This document shows, piece after piece, positions 6,085-64,000 of a stretch of DNA of 64,000 nt. This DNA comes from Fimbriimonadaceae bacterium (GTDB lineage Bacteria; Armatimonadota; Fimbriimonadia; Fimbriimonadales; Fimbriimonadaceae): contig CP075364.1 of the NCBI GenBank assembly GCA_019454105.1, positions 2,049,362 to 2,113,361 on the forward strand. The letters are read 5' to 3'. Position numbers and translations under genes: made by a program. Numbering within the stretch: the first letter of the stretch is position 1; every line of letters starts with the position of its first letter. The notes under the pieces are model-generated. The model saw only the letters and a list, made by a program, of their open reading frames with translations. It did no database searches and was not told the origin of the DNA.

Positions 6085-6128
6085 CTCCCCCACCCCCTGC
6101 CCCCTCCCCCGTAACGGGGGAGGGGGGT
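6085..6128. repeat. Palindromic GC-rich repeat, family 1
   Basis: An intergenic imperfect palindrome. Its core is CCCCCTCCCCC, then GTAAC, then GGGGGAGGGGG, flanked on one side by a C-rich strip (CCCCCACCCCCTG). It lies just downstream of the serine hydrolase stop and could also act as a terminator hairpin. The same element recurs more than ten times in the window. Confidence 0.9.
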
Positions 6129-6136
6129 CTGGTCTG

Positions 6137-9953: not shown

Positions 9954-9999
9954 GCCCCAGGATGCCCGAATCCTTTGTTAAGCTCCGATGAAGGATTGG

Positions 10000-10044
10000 G
10001 ACCCCCTCCCCCGTTACGGGGGAGGGGGCAGGGGGTGGGGGCCC
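10000..10044. repeat. Palindromic GC-rich repeat, family 1
   Basis: A full-length copy: CCCCCTCCCCC, GTTAC, GGGGGAGGGGG, then the asymmetric tail CAGGGGGTGGGGG. It occupies the start of the 315-bp gap upstream of phoX. The rest of that gap (10045-10268) shows no gene; it contains a short degraded piece resembling repeat family 3 (GGACTGAAGTC). Confidence 0.9.
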
Positions 10045-10699: not shown

Positions 10700-10790
10700 A
10701 GAGCCCCCTCCCCCGGACACCTGACACGGACAAAGGGATCGCACCCCCCTCCCCCGTTACGGGGGAGGGGGCAGGGGGTGGGGGCCCGCC
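10700..10790. repeat. Palindromic GC-rich repeat, family 1, with an adjacent half copy
   Basis: A half-copy (GCCCCCTCCCCCGGAC) near 10702 is followed by a full copy at 10745-10785 (CCCCCTCCCCC, GTTAC, GGGGGAGGGGG, CAGGGGGTGGGGG). It ends a few bases beyond the subtilase stop codon, where it may serve as a terminator. Confidence 0.9.
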
Positions 10791-12551: not shown

Positions 12552-12656
12552 CCGAAGTCCCCACCCCCAACCCCCTCCCCAGACCCTCCGGGTCCAGGGA
12601 GGAGGCTCGGATCCCCTCCCCCGTTACGGGGGAGGGGGCAGGGGGTGGGGGCCCAC
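12552..12656. repeat. Composite family-1 palindromic repeat
   Basis: It has the same two-part layout as at 7947-8029: CCCCACCCCCAACCCCC, an inverted pair centred on CCCTCCGGG, then CCCCTCCCCC-GTTAC-GGGGGAGGGGG and the CAGGGGGTGGGGG tail. It lies in the region upstream of the subtilase gene and downstream of the small lipoprotein candidate. Confidence 0.88.
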
Positions 12657-30469: not shown

Positions 30470-30507
30470 CCTTTGCCCCCTCCCCCGTAACGGGGGAGGG
30501 GGTGATT
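30470..30507. repeat. Palindromic GC-rich repeat, family 1 (core only)
   Basis: The core CCCCCTCCCCC-GTAAC-GGGGGAGGGGG lies without the usual tail between the hsp20 start and the DUF393 gene stop. It reaches the latter's stop codon region, so it may terminate that transcript. Confidence 0.85.
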
Positions 30508-48286: not shown

Positions 48287-48362
48287 GGATCGGGAAGCTT
48301 CTGGCAGGCGAGGGCCCCATGCTGGTCGCGCAGGGTCTCGAGGAGGGCCAAGCGTCCGCGTC

Positions 48363-48405
48363 TCCCCCACCCCCGTGGCGGGGGAGGGGGCAGGGGGTGG
48401 GGCTC
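48363..48405. repeat. Palindromic repeat, family 1 (variant core)
   Basis: CCCCCACCCCC, GTGGC, GGGGGAGGGGG, CAGGGGGTGGGG: the core is altered to GTGGC. It is the first of a stack of repeats that fills the 668-bp gap 48287-48954; apart from these repeats I see no gene in the gap. Confidence 0.88.
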
Positions 48406-48647: not shown

Positions 48648-48802
48648 TGGGGAGCCTCAACCCTGCGAGGGTTGAGGCATGAGACCAAGAGCGGGCCGAT
48701 CAGCCGGACTGAAGTCCGGCAGTCCAAAGCCGGGCCAAGGCCCGGCACTCCGGAGAACCCCCTCCCCCGTTACGGGGGAGGGGGCAGGGGGTGGGGGCCT
48801 AG
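48648..48802. repeat. Family 3 repeat followed by a family 1 copy
   Basis: First comes a hairpin with arms GCCTCAACCC and GGGTTGAGGC. It is followed by AGCCGGACTGAAGTCCGGCA and AAAGCCGGGCCAAGGCCCGG. A family-1 palindrome with tail follows at 48759-48800. The same order of elements recurs at 54358-54546. The remaining 48803-48954 shows no clear feature. Confidence 0.85.
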
Positions 48803-53979: not shown

Positions 53980-54125
53980 GATGTCAAAGATCCGCCGTCA
54001 CCGATCCGGTTATCGTTGAGCAGGCACGGTGGCTCGGCAGGCCTTGCCGCTCATGGCCAGTGACGGCAGCGCGATCTCCGGCAAAGGGCGAGGAACACAC
54101 CACGACTCTGGACACCGGCGGAGCC

Positions 54126-54172
54126 CCCCTCCCCCGTTACGGGGGAGGGGGCAGGGGGTGGGGGCTCGCCAG
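54126..54172. repeat. Palindromic repeat, family 1
   Basis: A full copy with tail (CCCCCTCCCCC-GTTAC-GGGGGAGGGGG-CAGGGGGTGGGGG), first element of the repeat stack that fills the 570-bp gap 53980-54549. Confidence 0.9.
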
Positions 54173-54357: not shown

Positions 54358-54546
54358 CGGAGCCTCGACCCCACGTGGGTCGAGGCATGACACCACGCCG
54401 CTCAGCCGGTGCGGGCCGATCAGCCGGACCGAAGTCCGGCAATCCAAAGCCGGGCCAAGGCCCGGCACTCCGACAGGCCCCGAATAGAGGGGCTCAAGTC
54501 CGGAACCCCCTCCCCCGTTACGGGGGAGGGGGCAGGGGGTGGGGGA
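54358..54546. repeat. Family 3 repeat plus family 1 copy
   Basis: The element has hairpin arms GCCTCGACCC / GGGTCGAGGC, then AGCCGGACCGAAGTCCGGCA and AAAGCCGGGCCAAGGCCCGG. A family-1 palindrome follows at 54506-54546, ending three bases from the stop of the 54550-55212 gene. Order and spacing copy those at 48648-48802. Confidence 0.85.
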
Positions 54547-54549
54547 CAC

Positions 54550-55710: not shown

Positions 55711-58700
55711 GTGGATGATTTTTCTACGAGAACGAACCTCGGCCAGCCAGCGCCCACTCACATCAAGACTCTGATCGACAACCGCCCGGGCAACACCATG
55801 CTCGGCGCAGTCCGGAACCTCTGCAAGTTGTGCCAAAGGCTCGACGTCGCGACCGGCTACTTCGAGGTGGGGGCCTTCGCCGATCTCCACGGGCATTGGC
55901 AGGGCCTCGACGGCATCAGGCTCCTCATGGGCGACGAGGTGACCCGCCAGACCCGGGCGCAGATCGCCCAAGCCCTCGGCGAGCGAAAGCGGAACGGCGT
56001 CGAGAGGATCCAGGAGGCCGACGACTGGGAGGCCCTCGACGCCCTCCAGGCCTTCAGGAAGGGGCTGGTGGAGGGCACGATCCAAGCCAAGGTCTACACT
56101 CAAGCCAAATTTCACGCCAAAGCCCTGAGGTTTCACCGTCCAGGCGACGTCGTGAGCCACGCCATCGTCGGAAGCTCGAACTTCACCCACCCCGGGCTCA
56201 CGCAGAACATCGAACTGAACATGTTCACCAGCGACCCGACACACATCGCTGAGTTGGACACGTGGTACGAGACCGCGTGGGCGGAGGCGGAAGACCTCAA
56301 AGAGGATCTCCTTCAGATCATCGAGCCCTACGTCCACGAGTACCACCCGTTCGAGATCTACCTTCGGGCGATGCGCGAGCGGTTTTACGGGCTCGAGCCG
56401 GATCAGGCCAGTTGGGAAATGACCGAAAGCAAGGTCTTCCCCCACTTGGCGGGGTACCAACGAGACGCATACTTCGACCTCAGGTTCATGGCCGAGCGCT
56501 GGGGCGGCGGTCTGCTCTGCGACGGGGTCGGCCTTGGCAAGACCTTCGTGGCGCTCGCCCTCATTGAACGCGCCCTGTCCCAGCGTAAGAGGGTCATCGT
56601 GGTCGCTCCCAAAGCGGCCATCCCCAGCGTTTGGCACCAGAACCTCGCTCGGTTCTTTCCTCACGACTTCGACCCCGATCCCAACTACCAGCACGACCTG
56701 CGCGTCTATCCCCACACCGATTTCGGCCGTCTGGGCGGCATCAATGACGAGCGGATCAACTGGCTCAGGGAGCGGTACGACGTCGTCGTCGTCGACGAAG
56801 CCCATCATTTCCGGACGCCACACCGCAACCGGAGCCAAAGGCTCAAACAGCTGGTCAAGGACAAAGAACTCTATCTGCTGACGGCCACACCCATCAACAA
56901 CTCTCTTGACGACCTCTACCATCTGCTGAACCTCATCGCCCAAGACCGGCAGAACCACTTCCAAAGCGTCAACGTGCCCAACCTGCGCAACTGGTTCAGG
57001 AAACAATCGAGCCAACTCGAAGACGAACAGCTGACCCTGGATCTCGCCGCCAATGCCGAGCTCGACCAGTTTCTCTGCAACGTCGTCGTGCAACGGTCGC
57101 GCCGCTATGTGAAGAGTCTCGAGGCTCAAGAGCACGACCGCGTCAAGTTCCCCCAGCGCGAAAGGCCAGAGGTTATCAACTACTCCCTACACGAAGTCTA
57201 CGGAGACCTGCTTGAAGAGCTTTTCCAGGCCTTCCATCCGATCAACCCGCGCCTCCACCTTGTCATCTACCAAACGGAGCTGTACAAGGAAGACGGTCAA
57301 GACAAGGCCGTCCTGCAGGAGCAGACCAACGTGGTGAGCCTGATCCGCACCATGTTCCTCAAGCGCCTGGAGTCCTCAGAGAAAGCCCTGGAGTGCAGCA
57401 TCGAGAGCCTGCTCTGGAAGCACGTCCAGGTGCTGAAGGACCTTCACGAGCTGAAGTTCGCCGCCTGGGAGGCCGAGCACAGTCAGGTCTACCGCACGAT
57501 GAAGAAGCACCGGGAGCAACTTAGCGGAGGAGAAGAGAGCGACGAAGAAGAGGACGACCTCCCGCTCACCACCTTTGAGCGCAAAGCGATCGAGCAAGTC
57601 CGTCAAGACTTCCGTCTCTTCGGGCGCAACGAAATCACCTGGCTCGACCTCTTGCTCTCCGACGCCGACGTCCTCGCCAAACTCCTCGGCCATCTCTACG
57701 AGGCGATCAACCCCCAAGACGACGCCAAGCTCCAAGCCTTTATCAGAAAGATCAAGGAGACGCCGCGTCTCAGTGAAAAAAAGTTCGTCGTCTTCAGCGA
57801 GTTCAAGGACACCGCGCGCTATCTGGAGGAGCAACTCAAGACAGCCTTCCCAGGCGACAACATTGTCGAAGTGGACAGCGGCCGCCACGTCCAAGACCGA
57901 GACCGGATCATCAAGCGGTTCGCCCCTTACTACAACTGCGTCAACGATCAGGAGCTCCGCGCGGCCTTGGCCGACCCCATCCGAGTCCTCATCTCGACCG
58001 ACGTCCTCAGCGAAGGCCTCAACCTCCAAGACGCCAACGTCATCGTCAATTACGACCTCCACTGGAACCCCGTCCGTCTCATGCAGCGCATCGGCCGCGT
58101 CGACCGCCGTATGGACCCCTCCAAGCCGGTGGAATACGACAAGGTCTATGTCTACAACTTCCTACCGCCCGACGACCTGGAGCGGCTCCTCGGGCTCTAC
58201 AGGAACATTACCGGCAAGCTCGTCCAGATCAACCGTGCCCTCGGCATCGAGGCCCCTATCCTGGATCCTGACGACGAATTCGAGGCCCAAGACTTCTATC
58301 TGAACGCGGGCCAGGGCACCCAGTCCCTCGCCGAGACCCTGCGTTTGGAAGCCCACTCCCTCGCGAAAGAACACCCCGAGCTTTGGGCGCGGTGCGAGAC
58401 GTTCCCCAACCGCGTCTTTTCGGGCAAAGCGGGAGAAGGCAAGAAGATGTTCCTGTGCTATCGGATCCCGACCGGAGAGCACGGCGAAGGCGAGGACGCC
58501 GAAACCGTCTGGGACGTCCGCTGGTACTTGTACGATTCAGCGACGGGGAAGACCACCGAGGCCCTCGACGTCGTCTTCCCGGCCGTGGCCTGCGCTGAAG
58601 GCACCGAGAGGGCCGTCACCATGCCAAGAGGGGACCGGACTCGGATCCGTAAACTGGTCGAGAGCCAAGAGGTCGAGGCCGTCGTCTTCAAGAGCCAACT

Positions 58701-58746
58701 GCCGCACGACAAGCGGCCCGAACTTGTGTGCTGGATGGAGGTCTGA
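55711..58746 (+). CDS. PLD-nuclease-like / SNF2-type helicase fusion
   Basis: A 1011-residue protein, the first gene of the defence-type module. Residues 20-200 are a phospholipase-D-like domain with a single HKD-type motif (KFHAKALRF, about 133; GSSNFTHPGL, about 153). The helicase core follows: Walker A DGVGLGKTFVAL (about 271), DEAH in VVVDEAHHFR (about 362), TATPIN (about 391). The second RecA lobe has LISTDVLSEGLNLQDANVIVNYD and QRIGRVDRR (about 791). A linker of about 300 residues contains an acidic stretch (GGEESDEEEDDLP). A C-terminal domain follows. Such proteins are found in restriction-like and phage-defence loci, where the helicase translocates on DNA and the PLD part may cut. Its stop adjoins the methyltransferase start. 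Confidence 0.9.
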   Translation: MDDFSTRTNLGQPAPTHIKTLIDNRPGNTMLGAVRNLCKLCQRLDVATGYFEVGAFADLHGHWQGLDGIRLLMGDEVTRQTRAQIAQALGERKRNGVERIQEADDWEALDALQAFRKGLVEGTIQAKVYTQAKFHAKALRFHRPGDVVSHAIVGSSNFTHPGLTQNIELNMFTSDPTHIAELDTWYETAWAEAEDLKEDLLQIIEPYVHEYHPFEIYLRAMRERFYGLEPDQASWEMTESKVFPHLAGYQRDAYFDLRFMAERWGGGLLCDGVGLGKTFVALALIERALSQRKRVIVVAPKAAIPSVWHQNLARFFPHDFDPDPNYQHDLRVYPHTDFGRLGGINDERINWLRERYDVVVVDEAHHFRTPHRNRSQRLKQLVKDKELYLLTATPINNSLDDLYHLLNLIAQDRQNHFQSVNVPNLRNWFRKQSSQLEDEQLTLDLAANAELDQFLCNVVVQRSRRYVKSLEAQEHDRVKFPQRERPEVINYSLHEVYGDLLEELFQAFHPINPRLHLVIYQTELYKEDGQDKAVLQEQTNVVSLIRTMFLKRLESSEKALECSIESLLWKHVQVLKDLHELKFAAWEAEHSQVYRTMKKHREQLSGGEESDEEEDDLPLTTFERKAIEQVRQDFRLFGRNEITWLDLLLSDADVLAKLLGHLYEAINPQDDAKLQAFIRKIKETPRLSEKKFVVFSEFKDTARYLEEQLKTAFPGDNIVEVDSGRHVQDRDRIIKRFAPYYNCVNDQELRAALADPIRVLISTDVLSEGLNLQDANVIVNYDLHWNPVRLMQRIGRVDRRMDPSKPVEYDKVYVYNFLPPDDLERLLGLYRNITGKLVQINRALGIEAPILDPDDEFEAQDFYLNAGQGTQSLAETLRLEAHSLAKEHPELWARCETFPNRVFSGKAGEGKKMFLCYRIPTGEHGEGEDAETVWDVRWYLYDSATGKTTEALDVVFPAVACAEGTERAVTMPRGDRTRIRKLVESQEVEAVVFKSQLPHDKRPELVCWMEV

Positions 58747-58747
58747 C

Positions 58748-61700
58748 GTGCTCCCAGAATTTACTGCCGACAATCTTAAGGCTGTGAGGACTTTCGAGGG
58801 CCTCGCCCAGTTCTTCCGTGACTGGCTCGATTGGCCCGTCTCTGAGTGGCGGACGTTCGAAGGCGTCCCCCAGCTCTATGGCCTTGATCGGCAGGCGGTC
58901 CCCGGCGTCGAACGTCTCGCCGCCGTCCAGAAGCTGAACGAGAGCCAGAAGTGGGGCGTCTTCTTGGTCGACTTTGGACAGACGGCCATGCGCCGCTCCG
59001 ACTTGCGGCGCATCCTGAATGCTGTCGCCGAACGGGCCCGCCAGACCCACGACAACCCGACCTGGCCCCACGAGGACATCCTCTTCGTCGTCCGGCACTC
59101 GGGGAGCTCATGGGCCCTCGGTCACTTCCGCGGCGACAAGCTGGCCAACGCCAAGCTCAAGACGTTCGGCTGGAGCGAGGGATCCGTCACCCGGACGACG
59201 CTCAAGAACCTCCAGGGGCTGCGCTGGGGGGCCGATTGGGCCGAAGCCTTTGACGTCGAGGCGGTCACCAAAGAGTTCTTCAAGGAGGCGAGCGACCTCT
59301 TCTTCCAGGCCGTCGAAGCCGTCCGGGGCGCATTCCCGACCGAGAACGAGGCGCGGCTGTTCGTCCAGACCCTCTTCAACCGCCTCATGTTCTTGCGCTT
59401 CGTCGAGGCCAAAGGCTGGCTGACCCTCAACGGACGCGAGGACTATCTGCGCGCCCTCTGGGAAGCCGGCAAAGACGGGGTCAATCCGCTCTGGCCGACG
59501 CGGCTCAATGCGTTGTTCGGCGCCGTCAACCATCCGACCAGTGACAACGTCCATGCCGTGTCGCGGCCGATCATCGGCGAGGTGCCGTTCTTGAACGGCG
59601 GCCTGTTCGACGACGACCCTTCCTTCGCCCGACCCGAGGTGCAGCCTCCTCCCGCGTTCTTCGATGGGCTTCTTGGGCATGAGGGCCTCCTTTACCGCTA
59701 CAACGTCACTGTCGAGGAGAGCTCGCCGATGGACGTCCAAGTGGCGATCGACCCCGAGATCCTCGGCAAGATCTTTGAGCAGCTGACCGTCAGCAGCAAG
59801 CGCCACGACACCGGCAGCTACTACACCCCCCGCGAGATCGTGCAGTTCATGTGCCGCGAGGCGCTGGTGGGCTACCTGATCTCCCCTCGCCTCTCCGGAG
59901 GAGAGGGAGAAGGGGGTGATGGTTCCGGAGCCCCCTCCCCAGTTCACGGGGGAGGGGGTGGGGGGTGGGGGCAAGGACTCTCCGAAGAGAAGGCGAGAAA
60001 GCTCGTCTACGACCACGACGACAGCACCCTCACCAACCAAGAGGGCAACCTGGCCTTCGAGGCGCTGAAGGCGATCAAGGTCGTGGACCCCGCATGCGGC
60101 AGCGGCGCCTACCTGCTCGGCATGCTCCAGGAGCTCTACGCGCTCTTCGAGAAGCTGCGCCGTGACGACCGCAAGTTCAGCGACGACCCAGCCAAAGAGG
60201 CGCACGAGCGCAAGCTCTGGATCATCGAGAACAACCTCTACGGCGTGGACCTGCAGGCGTTCGCCACCAACACCGCCATGCTGCGCCTGTGGCTGACGCT
60301 GCTGGTGGAAGACACCGGCGCAAAGCCCCAGCCCCTGCCGAACCTGGAGTACAAGATCGAGACTGGCGACAGCCTCCTCGGCCCCGACCCCTCGCAGCCG
60401 ATCGACTGGTCGAAAGTGCAGCGCGGGCTGGACTTCGAGGGCGTGCACGAGACGGTGGACGCCCTGCGCAAGCTCCGCGAGAAATACCAAGACGCCCACG
60501 GGCCGGAGAAGCTGACGGTCAAGAAGGAGCTCGAGGCCAAGCTCGCCGAGTTGAGGGAGAAGGTCACCGGCCGCCCCACCAAAGACCCCGCCAAGTTCGA
60601 CTGGCGCGTCGAGTTCTTCGACGTCTTCCTCGACGATCCCGCACAACGGGAGGCTGGATTTGATGTCGCGCTGGCGAATCCACCATATGTCAGAGCGGAC
60701 GCGCCTGGCGACGGGTGGAAGGCATTCCGAAAGGCGCTCAAGGATTCCAACATGTACGTGACCCTGCATGAGAAATGGGATTTGTACATTCCATTTCTGG
60801 AGCGTGCTCACCGGATGCTTGCCCCGAAAGGCAGCATGGTCTTCATCATCCCCGACGCGTATAACACCGCCAAGTACGCAGCCAAGTCGCACGAGTTCTT
60901 CGTGGCGAACTCCACCATCGAGCGCATCGATTTTTGTAGCGAAATCCCGCTGTTCAATGCCGGTGTATTCAATACGATCCTCCACTTCTCCCGTCAGGCT
61001 GCGCAAGCGAACCACATTCCGAAGAGGGTGAAACGGCGAGGGGAATCACCCGAAGACTTCGAGCGCCTCGGCGAATCTCTAGATAGTGCACCACAGGCGG
61101 CCCTAGGGGCCCGAGTCTTCAGAAGCGACATTCAGACCGTCACCGTGTCCGCCGCTGTGATCCCGCTGTGCGAGGTCTGCTACATCAGTGTGGGCATGGT
61201 CATTCATGCGGATGAGAAGAGAGCGCACCTTGCTTTCAAGGCCACGGACCTGATAAGCAATACCCAGGACAGCATGCATCCCAAGCGATTCTTTCGGGGC
61301 AAGGACATGGAACGGTGGCGGACTCCCACTCCTAGCTACCTTGAATGGGGAACGAGCCGAGCTCCGCAGCTGTTCCGGCGCCCCACTTTTCCGGAACTGT
61401 ACGAGGTGCCCGAAAAGCTGATTTCCATGGATTTAGCAGGGGGCAGGCCGAGGGTTATCTACGACAACCAACAGCTCTTCCACAACCATTCGGCTTGGAG
61501 TTTCGTCCCTTGGCATCTCCTTGAGGGGGTTAGAAATGCCTCGATACGCAAAACCGCCCGATACAGGGGAGAGCCAGGCAGGGGGGCTGCCAGGATGAGT
61601 CAGCCCCGTGAGGAGCTGGAAGAAGTCTCTCAGCGATTCGAGGTCAAGTATCTGCTCGGAGTCATGAACTCGGAACCCGGTGCTAGATGGATGAACGCCC

Positions 61701-61912
61701 ACCGGAAGAACAAGATGCACATCTTCCCCGATGACTGGCGCGAGTTCCCCATCCCCCGCGCCTCGGACGCCGACCGGGACGCCATCGCCGCCCTCGTCCA
61801 GAAGTGCCTCGACGCCAAAGCCGCCGACCCCACCGCCGACGTGAGCGCATACGAAGCCGAAATCGACGAGATCGTCGAGCGGCTGTACTTCGGGGAGGGC
61901 CAGGCTCTATGA
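58748..61912 (+). CDS. Eco57I/type IIG-like N6-adenine DNA methyltransferase
   Basis: The protein has 1054 residues from GTG at 58748, one base after the helicase stop; an in-frame ATG at 58724 would overlap the helicase by 23 bp. The N-terminal helical domain (1-350) ends at GSYYTPREIVQFMCREAL. A repeat-derived insert lies at about 378-409. The catalytic core has motif I VVDPACGSGAYLLGML (about 446) and motif IV in DVALANPPYVR (about 643). A target-recognition part follows (KRFFRGKDMERW; LEWGTSRAPQLFRRP) and the C-terminal helix DADRDAIAALVQKCLDAKAA. DNA from about 60650 to 61720 is clearly lower in GC and uses different codons, as expected for an exchanged specificity region. It presumably marks host DNA for the helicase. 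Confidence 0.9.
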   Translation: MLPEFTADNLKAVRTFEGLAQFFRDWLDWPVSEWRTFEGVPQLYGLDRQAVPGVERLAAVQKLNESQKWGVFLVDFGQTAMRRSDLRRILNAVAERARQTHDNPTWPHEDILFVVRHSGSSWALGHFRGDKLANAKLKTFGWSEGSVTRTTLKNLQGLRWGADWAEAFDVEAVTKEFFKEASDLFFQAVEAVRGAFPTENEARLFVQTLFNRLMFLRFVEAKGWLTLNGREDYLRALWEAGKDGVNPLWPTRLNALFGAVNHPTSDNVHAVSRPIIGEVPFLNGGLFDDDPSFARPEVQPPPAFFDGLLGHEGLLYRYNVTVEESSPMDVQVAIDPEILGKIFEQLTVSSKRHDTGSYYTPREIVQFMCREALVGYLISPRLSGGEGEGGDGSGAPSPVHGGGGGGWGQGLSEEKARKLVYDHDDSTLTNQEGNLAFEALKAIKVVDPACGSGAYLLGMLQELYALFEKLRRDDRKFSDDPAKEAHERKLWIIENNLYGVDLQAFATNTAMLRLWLTLLVEDTGAKPQPLPNLEYKIETGDSLLGPDPSQPIDWSKVQRGLDFEGVHETVDALRKLREKYQDAHGPEKLTVKKELEAKLAELREKVTGRPTKDPAKFDWRVEFFDVFLDDPAQREAGFDVALANPPYVRADAPGDGWKAFRKALKDSNMYVTLHEKWDLYIPFLERAHRMLAPKGSMVFIIPDAYNTAKYAAKSHEFFVANSTIERIDFCSEIPLFNAGVFNTILHFSRQAAQANHIPKRVKRRGESPEDFERLGESLDSAPQAALGARVFRSDIQTVTVSAAVIPLCEVCYISVGMVIHADEKRAHLAFKATDLISNTQDSMHPKRFFRGKDMERWRTPTPSYLEWGTSRAPQLFRRPTFPELYEVPEKLISMDLAGGRPRVIYDNQQLFHNHSAWSFVPWHLLEGVRNASIRKTARYRGEPGRGAARMSQPREELEEVSQRFEVKYLLGVMNSEPGARWMNAHRKNKMHIFPDDWREFPIPRASDADRDAIAALVQKCLDAKAADPTADVSAYEAEIDEIVERLYFGEGQAL
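59886..59973. repeat. Family-1 palindromic repeat inserted in frame within the methyltransferase gene
   Basis: CCTCTCCGGAGGAGAGG is followed by GCCCCCTCCCC, AGTTCAC, GGGGGAGGGGG and TGGGGGGTGGGGG. These are the intergenic family-1 elements, here inside a coding region. They translate as SGGEGEGGDGSGAPSPVHGG then GGGGWGQG between YLISPRL and LSEEKARKL, without stop or frameshift. Confidence 0.88.
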
Positions 61913-61930
61913 GCCCCAGCTCTCAGCTAT

Positions 61931-63388
61931 ATGAAGCTCCTTATTGACACCAATATCTTCATTCCGCTCGAACCCACGTCTCCAGAAGACATTAGCGAGC
62001 AAACGCAAACGGCTTCGCGCCTGTCCCAGTTGGCTTCCAAAACTAACACTCAGTTATGGCTCCACCCGGCGCAGCGGGTCGACATTGCGAAGGACAAGAC
62101 CGCCGCTCGAAGATCTTTGAGAGAACAGCTGTTCTCTAAGTATCCCGTGCTTATCGTCAACCTACCACCGGTGCCGCCAAGGCGAACGAATGACTGGGTG
62201 GATGAGCAACTGGTACTAGCGCTGCAGCGTAACGCGGTGAGCGCCTTGATCACGGAAGACCGCCGCCTGACGCAAAAAGCCATCAAGCAGCTAGGCACAG
62301 AACGTGTGCTGACACTAGCCGACGCGATATCCTTACTCGCATCTCTTGTCGAAGCGGAGCTTGCTCCGCCGCCAGCCGTCGAATGCGTCCGGGCGTACCA
62401 GCTAGACATCCGTGACCGCTTTTGGGACAGCTTCCGTGCAGATTACGGGGACGACGCTTTCGACAGATGGCTCCAGAAGTGCCAACAGGAGCATCGGCTG
62501 GCCTGGGTGATCCGAGCGCCCGACTCCTCTGCGTTGGTCGGGGCCGCGATCGTGAACCACGAGAAGAAGGAAACTAGGGGTCGGAAAACACTGAAAATCT
62601 GCAGCTTCAAGGTCGACGCTGCTCACAGTGGGCGCCGTTACGGCGAGCTACTGCTGAAGAGCGTCTTTTGCCACGCCTTCGAGAACCGCTTCGACAGCTT
62701 CTATATCACAGCATTTCCTCATCACGAGCAATTGATCGGTTTGTTGACCGATTTCGGCTTCGGGCGCGAAATCGCCGAACTGCCTAATGGTGAGATCGCA
62801 TTGAGCAAGCCCCTTGCGCTCGATCTTCCCGTTCAGCGACAGGAGAAGCCTCTGCCATATTTCATCCGCGAGGGCCCTTTCTCGTTCGACCCGCACTGGA
62901 CTCCTGGATACCTCGTCCCCATCTTGCCCAAGTATCACGCCATGCTTTTTCCTGAGCTCCAAGCGCAGCAGCCTCTTGTCCCAGGAAGGGAAGCGTTCGG
63001 TAACAGCCTCCGGAAGGCATACCTCTCCTGTTCGGGGACGCGAACGCTCAGACCGGGCTCGATTCTCTTCTTCTACCGCAGCGAGGACGAGCAGGCAGTC
63101 CGAACCTGGGGCGTTGTCGAACAGTCCCTTCGCTCCGATGATGCGGACCGGATCTGCGACTTCGTAATGCCGCGCACCGTCTATACCCGCGACGAGATTG
63201 TGGAAATGTGCGACCGAGGCCAAGTGCTTGCCATCATGTTCAGGCAGTGTCTGCGTCCGATTCGGAATCCCGTCCGACTGGAGGAAATGCTCAAGGAACG
63301 AGCGATCGCGGCTGCACCTCAGTCCCTAATGAAGCTGAAGCCACCCGCGAAGCAGTGGATGACCGAACGATGCCTGAAGCTGCCTTAA
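61931..63388 (+). CDS. PIN - GNAT - PUA/EVE-like triple-domain fusion protein
   Basis: A 485-residue protein 18 bp after the methyltransferase. Residues 1-150 are a PIN-type nuclease (KLLIDTNIFIPLE with the first acidic residue; ALITEDRRLTQKA as the later acidic site). Residues 150-300 are a GNAT acetyltransferase (AWVIRAPDSSALVGAAIVNH; FKVDAAHSGRRYGELLLKSV, the acetyl-CoA loop). Residues 305-485 are a PUA-superfamily domain of EVE/ASCH type (PGSILFFYRSEDEQAVRTWG; VLAIMFRQCLRP; APQSLMKLKPPAKQWM). PIN and PUA domains act on RNA, and GNATs of toxin type acetylate aminoacyl-tRNA or proteins. I infer an RNA-targeting effector or toxin. GC content is lower than in the helicase gene. Confidence 0.85.
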   Translation: MKLLIDTNIFIPLEPTSPEDISEQTQTASRLSQLASKTNTQLWLHPAQRVDIAKDKTAARRSLREQLFSKYPVLIVNLPPVPPRRTNDWVDEQLVLALQRNAVSALITEDRRLTQKAIKQLGTERVLTLADAISLLASLVEAELAPPPAVECVRAYQLDIRDRFWDSFRADYGDDAFDRWLQKCQQEHRLAWVIRAPDSSALVGAAIVNHEKKETRGRKTLKICSFKVDAAHSGRRYGELLLKSVFCHAFENRFDSFYITAFPHHEQLIGLLTDFGFGREIAELPNGEIALSKPLALDLPVQRQEKPLPYFIREGPFSFDPHWTPGYLVPILPKYHAMLFPELQAQQPLVPGREAFGNSLRKAYLSCSGTRTLRPGSILFFYRSEDEQAVRTWGVVEQSLRSDDADRICDFVMPRTVYTRDEIVEMCDRGQVLAIMFRQCLRPIRNPVRLEEMLKERAIAAAPQSLMKLKPPAKQWMTERCLKLP

Positions 63389-63774
63389 TCTCCATCCATC
63401 CGAGATACGTTGATGCCATTCTATCAGGCGAGAAGCGCGTTGAGTTCCGAAAGGTCCCCTTCCGACGCCCGGTCGACCGCTTGATTGTGTACGCTACGGC
63501 GCCCGTGTCAGCCATCGTGGCGATCATCGAAGTCGGCGATATGGTTCATGACACGCCTTCGAATCTCTGGGAACTGTATGCCGACATCGGCGCAATCCAC
63601 GAGGACGACTTCTGGGCCTACTACCAAGGCCGTTCACTTGCTCTTGCTGTCGAGATTGCCGACGTCCGTAGGCTTCCACGAGCTGTGGAGTTGGTCGACG
63701 TGCTTCCTGAGGCCCGGCCGCCTCAAAGCTTCCGTTACGTGTCGTATGAGGCCATTCGTCCATTATTGGGATGA
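63370..63774 (+). CDS. ASCH-domain protein
   Basis: A 134-residue PUA-fold ASCH protein: ALISIHPRYVDAILSGEKRVEFRKVPFRR (the ASCH signature with the GxKxxEfR-type motif), DRLIVYATAPVSAIVAIIEVGD, and WAYYQGRSLALAVEIADVRR. It ends PPQSFRYVSYEAIRPLL. ASCH proteins bind RNA or modified nucleotides; some cleave RNA or deacylate modified cytidine. The ATG at 63370 lies inside the PIN-GNAT gene (19-bp overlap), so the two are coupled, and this product may be an antidote or RNA-sensing partner. An earlier in-frame ATG exists but would read 54 codons through the upstream gene. Confidence 0.87.
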   Translation: MPEAALISIHPRYVDAILSGEKRVEFRKVPFRRPVDRLIVYATAPVSAIVAIIEVGDMVHDTPSNLWELYADIGAIHEDDFWAYYQGRSLALAVEIADVRRLPRAVELVDVLPEARPPQSFRYVSYEAIRPLLG

Positions 63775-64000
63775 GTGCTCGCCTGCCCTGCGCCTCGGAC
63801 GCCGACCGCGCCGACATCGAGTCCCTTCCCGATAAATCGGGACAAGCTGTCCAGCGCATCCTCGACGCCAAAGCCGCCGACCCGGCCTCACCCCCGGCCC
63901 CTCTCCAGCGGACGGGAGAGGGGAGAACGAGGCGCACAAGGCGGCCGTCTTCACCTCCAGCCTCCGGGCCGCCTGCTCGAAGACCAACAAGGACGGCGGC
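63771..64000 (+). pseudogene. Degenerate copy of the methyltransferase 3' end, running off the window
   Basis: An open frame starts with an ATGA overlap of the ASCH stop and stays open to the window end. Its first part, CASDADRADIE ... AVQRILDAKAADPA, is a copy of the methyltransferase C-terminus (RASDADRDAIAALVQKCLDA), with an in-frame insert of about eight codons formed by a small palindrome. After Pro the similarity stops at a CCCCTCTCC / GGGAGAGGGG hairpin. Beyond that, another frame (ENEAHKAAVFTSSLRAACSK then TNKDGG) looks more protein-like and may start a further gene. Whether any product is made is unknown. Confidence 0.6.
63827..63842. repeat. Small palindrome inserted in the methyltransferase-tail remnant
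   Basis: TCCCGAT-AA-ATCGGGA, a perfect 7-bp inverted repeat with a 2-base loop. Comparison with the intact tail at 61741-61912 shows it is extra sequence, inserted between codons for ...DIE and AVQ... without shifting the frame. Confidence 0.7.

Follow-up and report, generated by a model that had tools for sequence, protein, structure and literature searches.

A short palindromic repeat lying in frame within a DNA methyltransferase gene and three further genes of one bacterial genome

A DNA methyltransferase gene of a Fimbriimonadaceae bacterium contains an in-frame segment of two palindromic modules. The segment is very probably derived, a short palindromic repeat, mobile now or in the past, having inserted into the gene; it is a composite of two hairpins and would be translated as a flexible linker. 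Five observations are established: the segment is a repeat, homologous proteins lack it, the reading frame across it is open, the element occurs in three other conserved host genes, and such inserts recur in related genomes. The best-known cases of small palindromes that have entered protein genes in frame come from Rickettsia and Wolbachia. In the following we describe the insert and its host gene, the repeat family to which it belongs, the explanations that may be given for it, and its relation to the known repeat systems. The window is the whole stretch of DNA analysed (64,000 nucleotides), and coordinates refer to it unless they are given as genome positions.

The methyltransferase gene and its insert

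The features of the gene, the insert and a related hairpin downstream are as follows.

58748..61912, plus strand: DNA N6-adenine methyltransferase gene, host of the insert, 1054 amino acids (from translation, Pfam, PADLOC and invariant columns)
59879..59971, plus strand: in-frame insert made up of two palindromic modules; the closest homologues are shorter here by a net 87 nt (29 codons)
59881..59925, plus strand: module A, a CCTCTCC-GGA-GGAGAGG hairpin that has C/G outer arms and a GGGGGTGATGG tail, encoding SPRLSGGEGEGGDG
59927..59972, plus strand: module B, CCCCCTCCCC-AGTTCAC-GGGGGAGGGGG-T-GGGGGGTGGGGGC, encoding GAPSPVHGGGGGGWG, a member of the abundant family
63899..63922, minus strand: hairpin of type 2 (CCCTCTCC), akin to module A and carrying a GGGGGTGAGG tail, where two gene fragments meet

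The host gene starts with GTG at 58748, its entire 1054-codon frame is open, and the product is of the Type IIG/Eco57I-like class (Pfam Eco57I, E 1.2e-25; PADLOC REase_MTase_IIG, E 1.3e-53). Motif I (DPACGSG, residues 447-453) and motif IV (NPPY) are both intact, and codon scoring gives a strong coding signal on either side of the insert. A scan of the genome contigs with the methyltransferase returned a single distant homologue. At the insert the protein reads GYL-ISPRLSGGEGEGGDGSGAPSPVHGGGGGGWGQ-GLSEEK, with the I codon at 59879 and GLSEEK encoded from 59975. A preliminary description of this DNA had placed the added segment in the stretch from YYTPRE to motif I, with neither stop nor frameshift; the insert does lie there, and the gene frame runs through it without a stop. 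The roughly 30 added codons that it had described are an in-frame addition, with a net gain of 29 codons when the closest homologues are taken as reference. It had also recognized, inside the gene, an element found between genes across the window (its family 1) and a CCTCTCC/GGAGAGG hairpin; both hairpins are present, but only the second, module B, belongs to the abundant family. Module A represents a rare hairpin type related to that family: the exact CCTCTCC...GGAGAGG hairpin is found at six genome sites only, and the genome has no close copies of the module. Module B has four G-tracts with 1-nt loops and is found by the covariance model at genome 2109290-2109334 (E 6.0e-10). It matches many other genome sites with E values down to 2.7e-13, and because about 75 copies are moreover recovered by the covariance model at E <1e-4, its likeness to the other copies is not one of chance.

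The two closest homologues, L032 (genome G052) and L033 (genome G019), lack exactly the inserted segment. Across 750-780 aligned residues they share 60% and 58% identity with the methyltransferase (in the multiple alignment the values are 57% and 55%), and at the site they read GYLRSKGL (GYLRSKGLPEDRAR) and GYLGGTGL (GYLGGTGLREDKAR), where the protein studied here has GYL, the insert and then GLSEEKAR. More distant homologues have short and unrelated linkers at this place. The alignment proposed in the preliminary description thus yielded methyltransferases with either an empty site or a short unrelated linker, and the observation that it had named as contrary to an insertion did not turn up: in distant genomes no unrelated DNA was seen to encode the same Gly-rich loop. 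No duplication of the target site could be made out at the insert, the homologous empty sites being too diverged for one to be read. As other parts of the genome also have paired hairpins set a short distance apart (L007 and L009, for example), a composite insertion of the two modules is plausible. In the structure model of the protein, which is poor (pTM 0.39) and does not allow distances from the active site to be read, the insert appears as coil between helices 362-378 and 413-422.

The gene lies at 55711-63388 in a row with a gene for a PLD and SNF2 helicase protein, which precedes it, and a gene matching the PADLOC candidate PDC-M11A, which follows; with such neighbours the methyltransferase is probably part of a defence island. 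Further downstream, from 63771-64000 to about genome position 2113700, a fragment resembling the methyltransferase C-terminus (ASDADR...LDAKAADP) is fused to the tail of another ORF. This tail resembles an AlbA-type domain, and the type-2 hairpin lies exactly at the join.

The repeat family and the genes that carry it

The family of module B comprises about 79 copies of an element of about 45 nt in a genome of 2.74 Mb and 63.5% GC, and about 75 of these have E <1e-4 with the covariance model. Its consensus consists of C5TC5, a GTTAC or GTTCAC loop, G5AG5, two bases, G5TG5 and a C, and five of its six reading frames are open. The right arm and the tail together carry runs of G, a feature absent from the preliminary description: four runs of at least 4 G, separated by loops of 1-3 nt, are present in 69 of the 79 copies, and in 54 copies the runs are of at least 5 G. 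A very stable G-quadruplex beside the hairpin is thus possible. No strong consensus is present upstream of the stem as a target preference (A at -2 in 42 of 73 copies, CGGA in 12 of 74). The copies are those found by the covariance model, for which 150 of 1248 first-look candidates were scored, and degenerate in-frame copies may therefore be missed; a frame-specific search with a degenerate pattern gave no additional copies. The window contains the following copies besides the one in the methyltransferase.

6085..6129, minus strand: element copy, two-sided coding signal absent
9999..10043, plus strand: element copy, two-sided coding signal absent
10742..10786, plus strand: element copy, two-sided coding signal absent
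12609..12653, plus strand: element copy, two-sided coding signal absent, adjoining a divergent inverted copy at 12556-12608
30474..30502, minus strand: element copy, palindrome only, G-rich tail absent
48361..48405, plus strand: element copy (variant), two-sided coding signal absent
48755..48799, plus strand: element copy, two-sided coding signal absent
54122..54166, plus strand: element copy, two-sided coding signal absent
54503..54547, plus strand: element copy, two-sided coding signal absent

Across the genome, copies are absent from 603 kb spanning the contig ends (G000:C1:2489630-2741041 and 1-351287). For 37 randomly placed clusters a largest gap of this size has P of about 0.004; the contig start is not dnaA.

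Both flanks of all 79 copies were scored for codon usage in every open frame. In the calibration with three genes outside the training set, true-frame windows scored above 0.2 in 49 of 49 cases and wrong-frame windows in 17%. A two-sided coding signal was obtained for seven copies in only four genes, and was absent for the other 72. The search of the complete genome that the preliminary description had called for thus turned up the element in frame in three genes besides the methyltransferase, all with empty or shorter sites in their homologues. These are the genes of homoserine dehydrogenase (Hom), acyl-CoA dehydrogenase (ACAD) and SufD.

Genome 853240-854688: Hom, about four tandem 51-nt (17-codon) units, three of which pass the model; peptide GPSPVHGGGVGVGASGQ
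Genome 854741-856171, on the strand opposite to the adjacent Hom: ACAD, two 51-nt units
Genome 1571256-1572608: SufD, peptide GTPSPVTGEGAGGGG

The homologues of Hom (seven proteins, 59-77% identity) lack about 60 amino acids at the place of the insert. In the AlphaFold model, which is otherwise well predicted and whose fold matches 3mtj, the insert (residues 383-440) has pLDDT <50 and is disordered, looping out between two strands of the ACT region. The corresponding loop of ACAD has 46 residues, against 6 in the solved structure PDB 4l1f, and in the ACADs of most related genera the site is empty or nearly so. SufD is a net 7-10 residues longer than its nearest relatives; as this gain is small and falls in a variable linker, the element may have replaced part of the linker. 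Hom and SufD each have a single match in the genome, and for this reason the lengthened proteins presumably work. In all four host genes the element is read from one and the same strand and in one frame (PSPV[HT]G). This agreement is only suggestive, since it goes back to some three independent events and since five of the six frames are open in any case. In Hom and its convergent neighbour ACAD (L092, G000:C1:853240-856171) the tandem 51-nt units belong to one subfamily of the element that is confined to these two genes, and this suggests local copying between them.

The same covariance model finds weaker relatives of the element, distinct in sequence, in some genomes of the family and the order, and none of 45 relatives shows a comparable expansion of the form described here. 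In a related genus (G016) the alanyl-tRNA synthetase gene has two similar in-frame inserts of composite palindromes (L172 and L187, C1:922492-926676; GDHPHPEPLPRQGGG...). Two in-frame elements occur just after the second ATPase domain of an ABC-F ATPase of G009 (L189), and one occurs in a DNA methyltransferase of G022 (L176). The ACAD of G016 (L205) has different palindromic elements, again in frame, at the loop that is filled here at G000:C1:855419-855512, and with different elements at one site this loop was invaded in both genera. These cases are based on family assignment, and that of ACAD also on the alignment of empty sites. Some of the inserts in related genomes use reading frames other than PSPV[HT]G.

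Origin of the insert and alternative explanations

The course of events that we propose would begin with an element that spreads by copying itself to random new sites. Most hits within genes would break them, and the harmful ones would be removed by selection. A hit would survive where it adds a net number of nucleotides divisible by three, is read in a frame free of stops and falls in a surface loop, and the surviving copy would be translated as a flexible linker of Gly, Pro, Ser and Val in an enzyme that still works. Once inside a gene, copies may multiply in tandem by slippage in units of 51 nt (17 codons), as could be the case in Hom and ACAD. The likeliest routes of movement would be a single-strand (Y1/HUH) transposase acting in trans, or template switching at the hairpin or G-quadruplex during replication.

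Other explanations have to be weighed against an insertion that leaves a working enzyme. The segment might be an old, native Gly-rich linker of the methyltransferase, resembling the intergenic repeat in composition only. Linkers of Gly, Pro and Ser are common, and distant homologues differ in the length of the region from the YYTPRE helix to motif I, but the match of module B to dozens of copies at the level of DNA (E to 2.7e-13) and the presence of the same DNA in three unrelated genes are hard to reconcile with mere similarity of composition. The nearest homologues are entirely without the segment, and it is on these empty sites that the old linker was rejected; we consider it highly improbable. 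A different possibility is that the insertion inactivated the methyltransferase and the gene is a decaying pseudogene, whose frame stays open merely because the element has few stops. Five open frames of the six in the consensus would allow this, mobile defence genes are often lost, and a methyltransferase fragment does lie directly downstream. Even so, the frame is open over all 1054 codons, motifs I and IV are intact and the coding signal is strong to either side of the insert, all of which speaks against decay; Hom and SufD, for each of which the genome gave one match, tolerate the element too. We therefore regard a pseudogene as unlikely.

A further explanation would have the in-frame copies kept for a useful loop, or for a G-quadruplex or hairpin in the mRNA that acts in translation pausing, regulation or protein interaction. 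The four G-tracts found in 69 of 79 copies, the coding ones included, are in keeping with such a use, but recent copying explains the conservation of the tracts equally well. The strand and frame shared by all four genes of the genome (PSPV[HT]G) could likewise reflect selection, although only some three independent events stand behind this agreement and the frames used in other genomes differ. A useful loop would also fit the tandem growth seen in Hom and ACAD and the filling of one ACAD loop by different elements in two genera; on the other side, the host genes are unrelated and the insert of Hom is predicted to be disordered. We judge retention for such a use a shade less likely still than the pseudogene. 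Insertion of a repeat that became a tolerated, flexible linker is thus the reading that we prefer.

As for the wider meaning, one may picture an untagged family, capable of forming hairpins and G-quadruplexes and having no linked transposase, that repeatedly invades essential genes in frame across the order, in genus-specific versions and with some loops, such as that of ACAD, hit independently. The family would then be a standing source of flexible segments that grow by steps of 17 codons and possibly affect the translation of host mRNAs. We offer this picture tentatively and hold it to be possible but rather doubtful. The main value of the case lies in its occurrence outside the Rickettsiales, in genes that look indispensable (Hom and SufD, and in a related genus an alanyl-tRNA synthetase with two inserts), and in its recurrence across the order with element sequences specific to each lineage. 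For Rickettsia and Wolbachia genome decay has been a ready excuse, whereas the genomes here are of high GC. The order serves as a natural experiment that can show which loops of a protein tolerate added sequence and how inserts grow, and it also bears on how elements move when they lack both a REP tag and a transposase linked to them. For annotation there is a warning, as a loop rich in Gly and Pro, PSPVTGEGAGGGG being one example, can stem from repeat DNA.

Comparison with known repeat systems

Several groups of small palindromic repeats are known to enter coding regions. Among the MITEs with coding capacity, ERIC, YPAL and Correia are non-autonomous stem-loop repeats that can fuse in frame to ORFs (PMC2229807). 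They are about 100-200 bp long and have terminal inverted repeats and, in most cases, target-site duplications, neither of which was identified here, where the unit of the element is itself the hairpin. The five general criteria for REP-like elements, which ask for a short and palindromic repeat with similar copies, many in number and mostly extragenic (PMC12306157), all describe the element, which is a hairpin of about 45 nt in 79 copies of high identity, of which 72 lack a two-sided coding signal. The GTAG/CGTC REPs are hairpins of 20-40 bp in tens to hundreds of copies, including dimers and clusters, and some lie in frame inside ORFs, where a dimer contributes 20-30 amino acids and DNA-repair genes are often affected (PMC3733652). 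The element resembles these intragenic REPs in its way of working (PMC3733652), but it has a G-rich tail of 12 nt in place of their tag. Within 6 nt of the stem GTAG was found in 1 of 74 copies and CGTC in none of 74, and the absent tag rules out membership. The genome has two genes with the Y1 transposase domain PF01797 (L073, G000:C1:1574156-1577428; L074, 1596022-1599273). These RAYT-like genes sit among other repeats (translated LSPPRVEAPPPG and RRSARACPRCGVGGLPP) that are distinct from the element, whose core sequence was not found within 1.5 kb of either gene. Mobilisation by a linked RAYT was rejected, because both genes lie among other repeat families.

The Rickettsia palindromic elements (RPE) and the Wolbachia WPE are small palindromes found between genes and in frame in unrelated conserved genes (PMC3767692, PMC2229807, PMC10969869). 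The element shares this distribution, with in-frame copies in four genes whose homologues have empty or shorter sites, and it is like RPE and WPE also in that loops tolerate the insert and that the same site of a gene is hit recurrently in different lineages (PMC3767692, PMC2229807, PMC10969869). It differs in other respects: RPE are 100-150 bp long with a consensus of their own and occur in AT-rich genomes of Rickettsiales, whereas the element is about 45 nt (about 93 nt as the composite), is built on C- and G-tracts, is capable of a G-quadruplex and belongs to another lineage with a genome of 63.5% GC. Length and composition set it apart from RPE-1 to RPE-10. Since its unit length and composition differ and the tag is absent, the element belongs to neither RPE nor the GTAG/CGTC REPs. 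The parallel with Rickettsia drawn in the preliminary description is accordingly supported for the behaviour of the element and fails for membership in the family.
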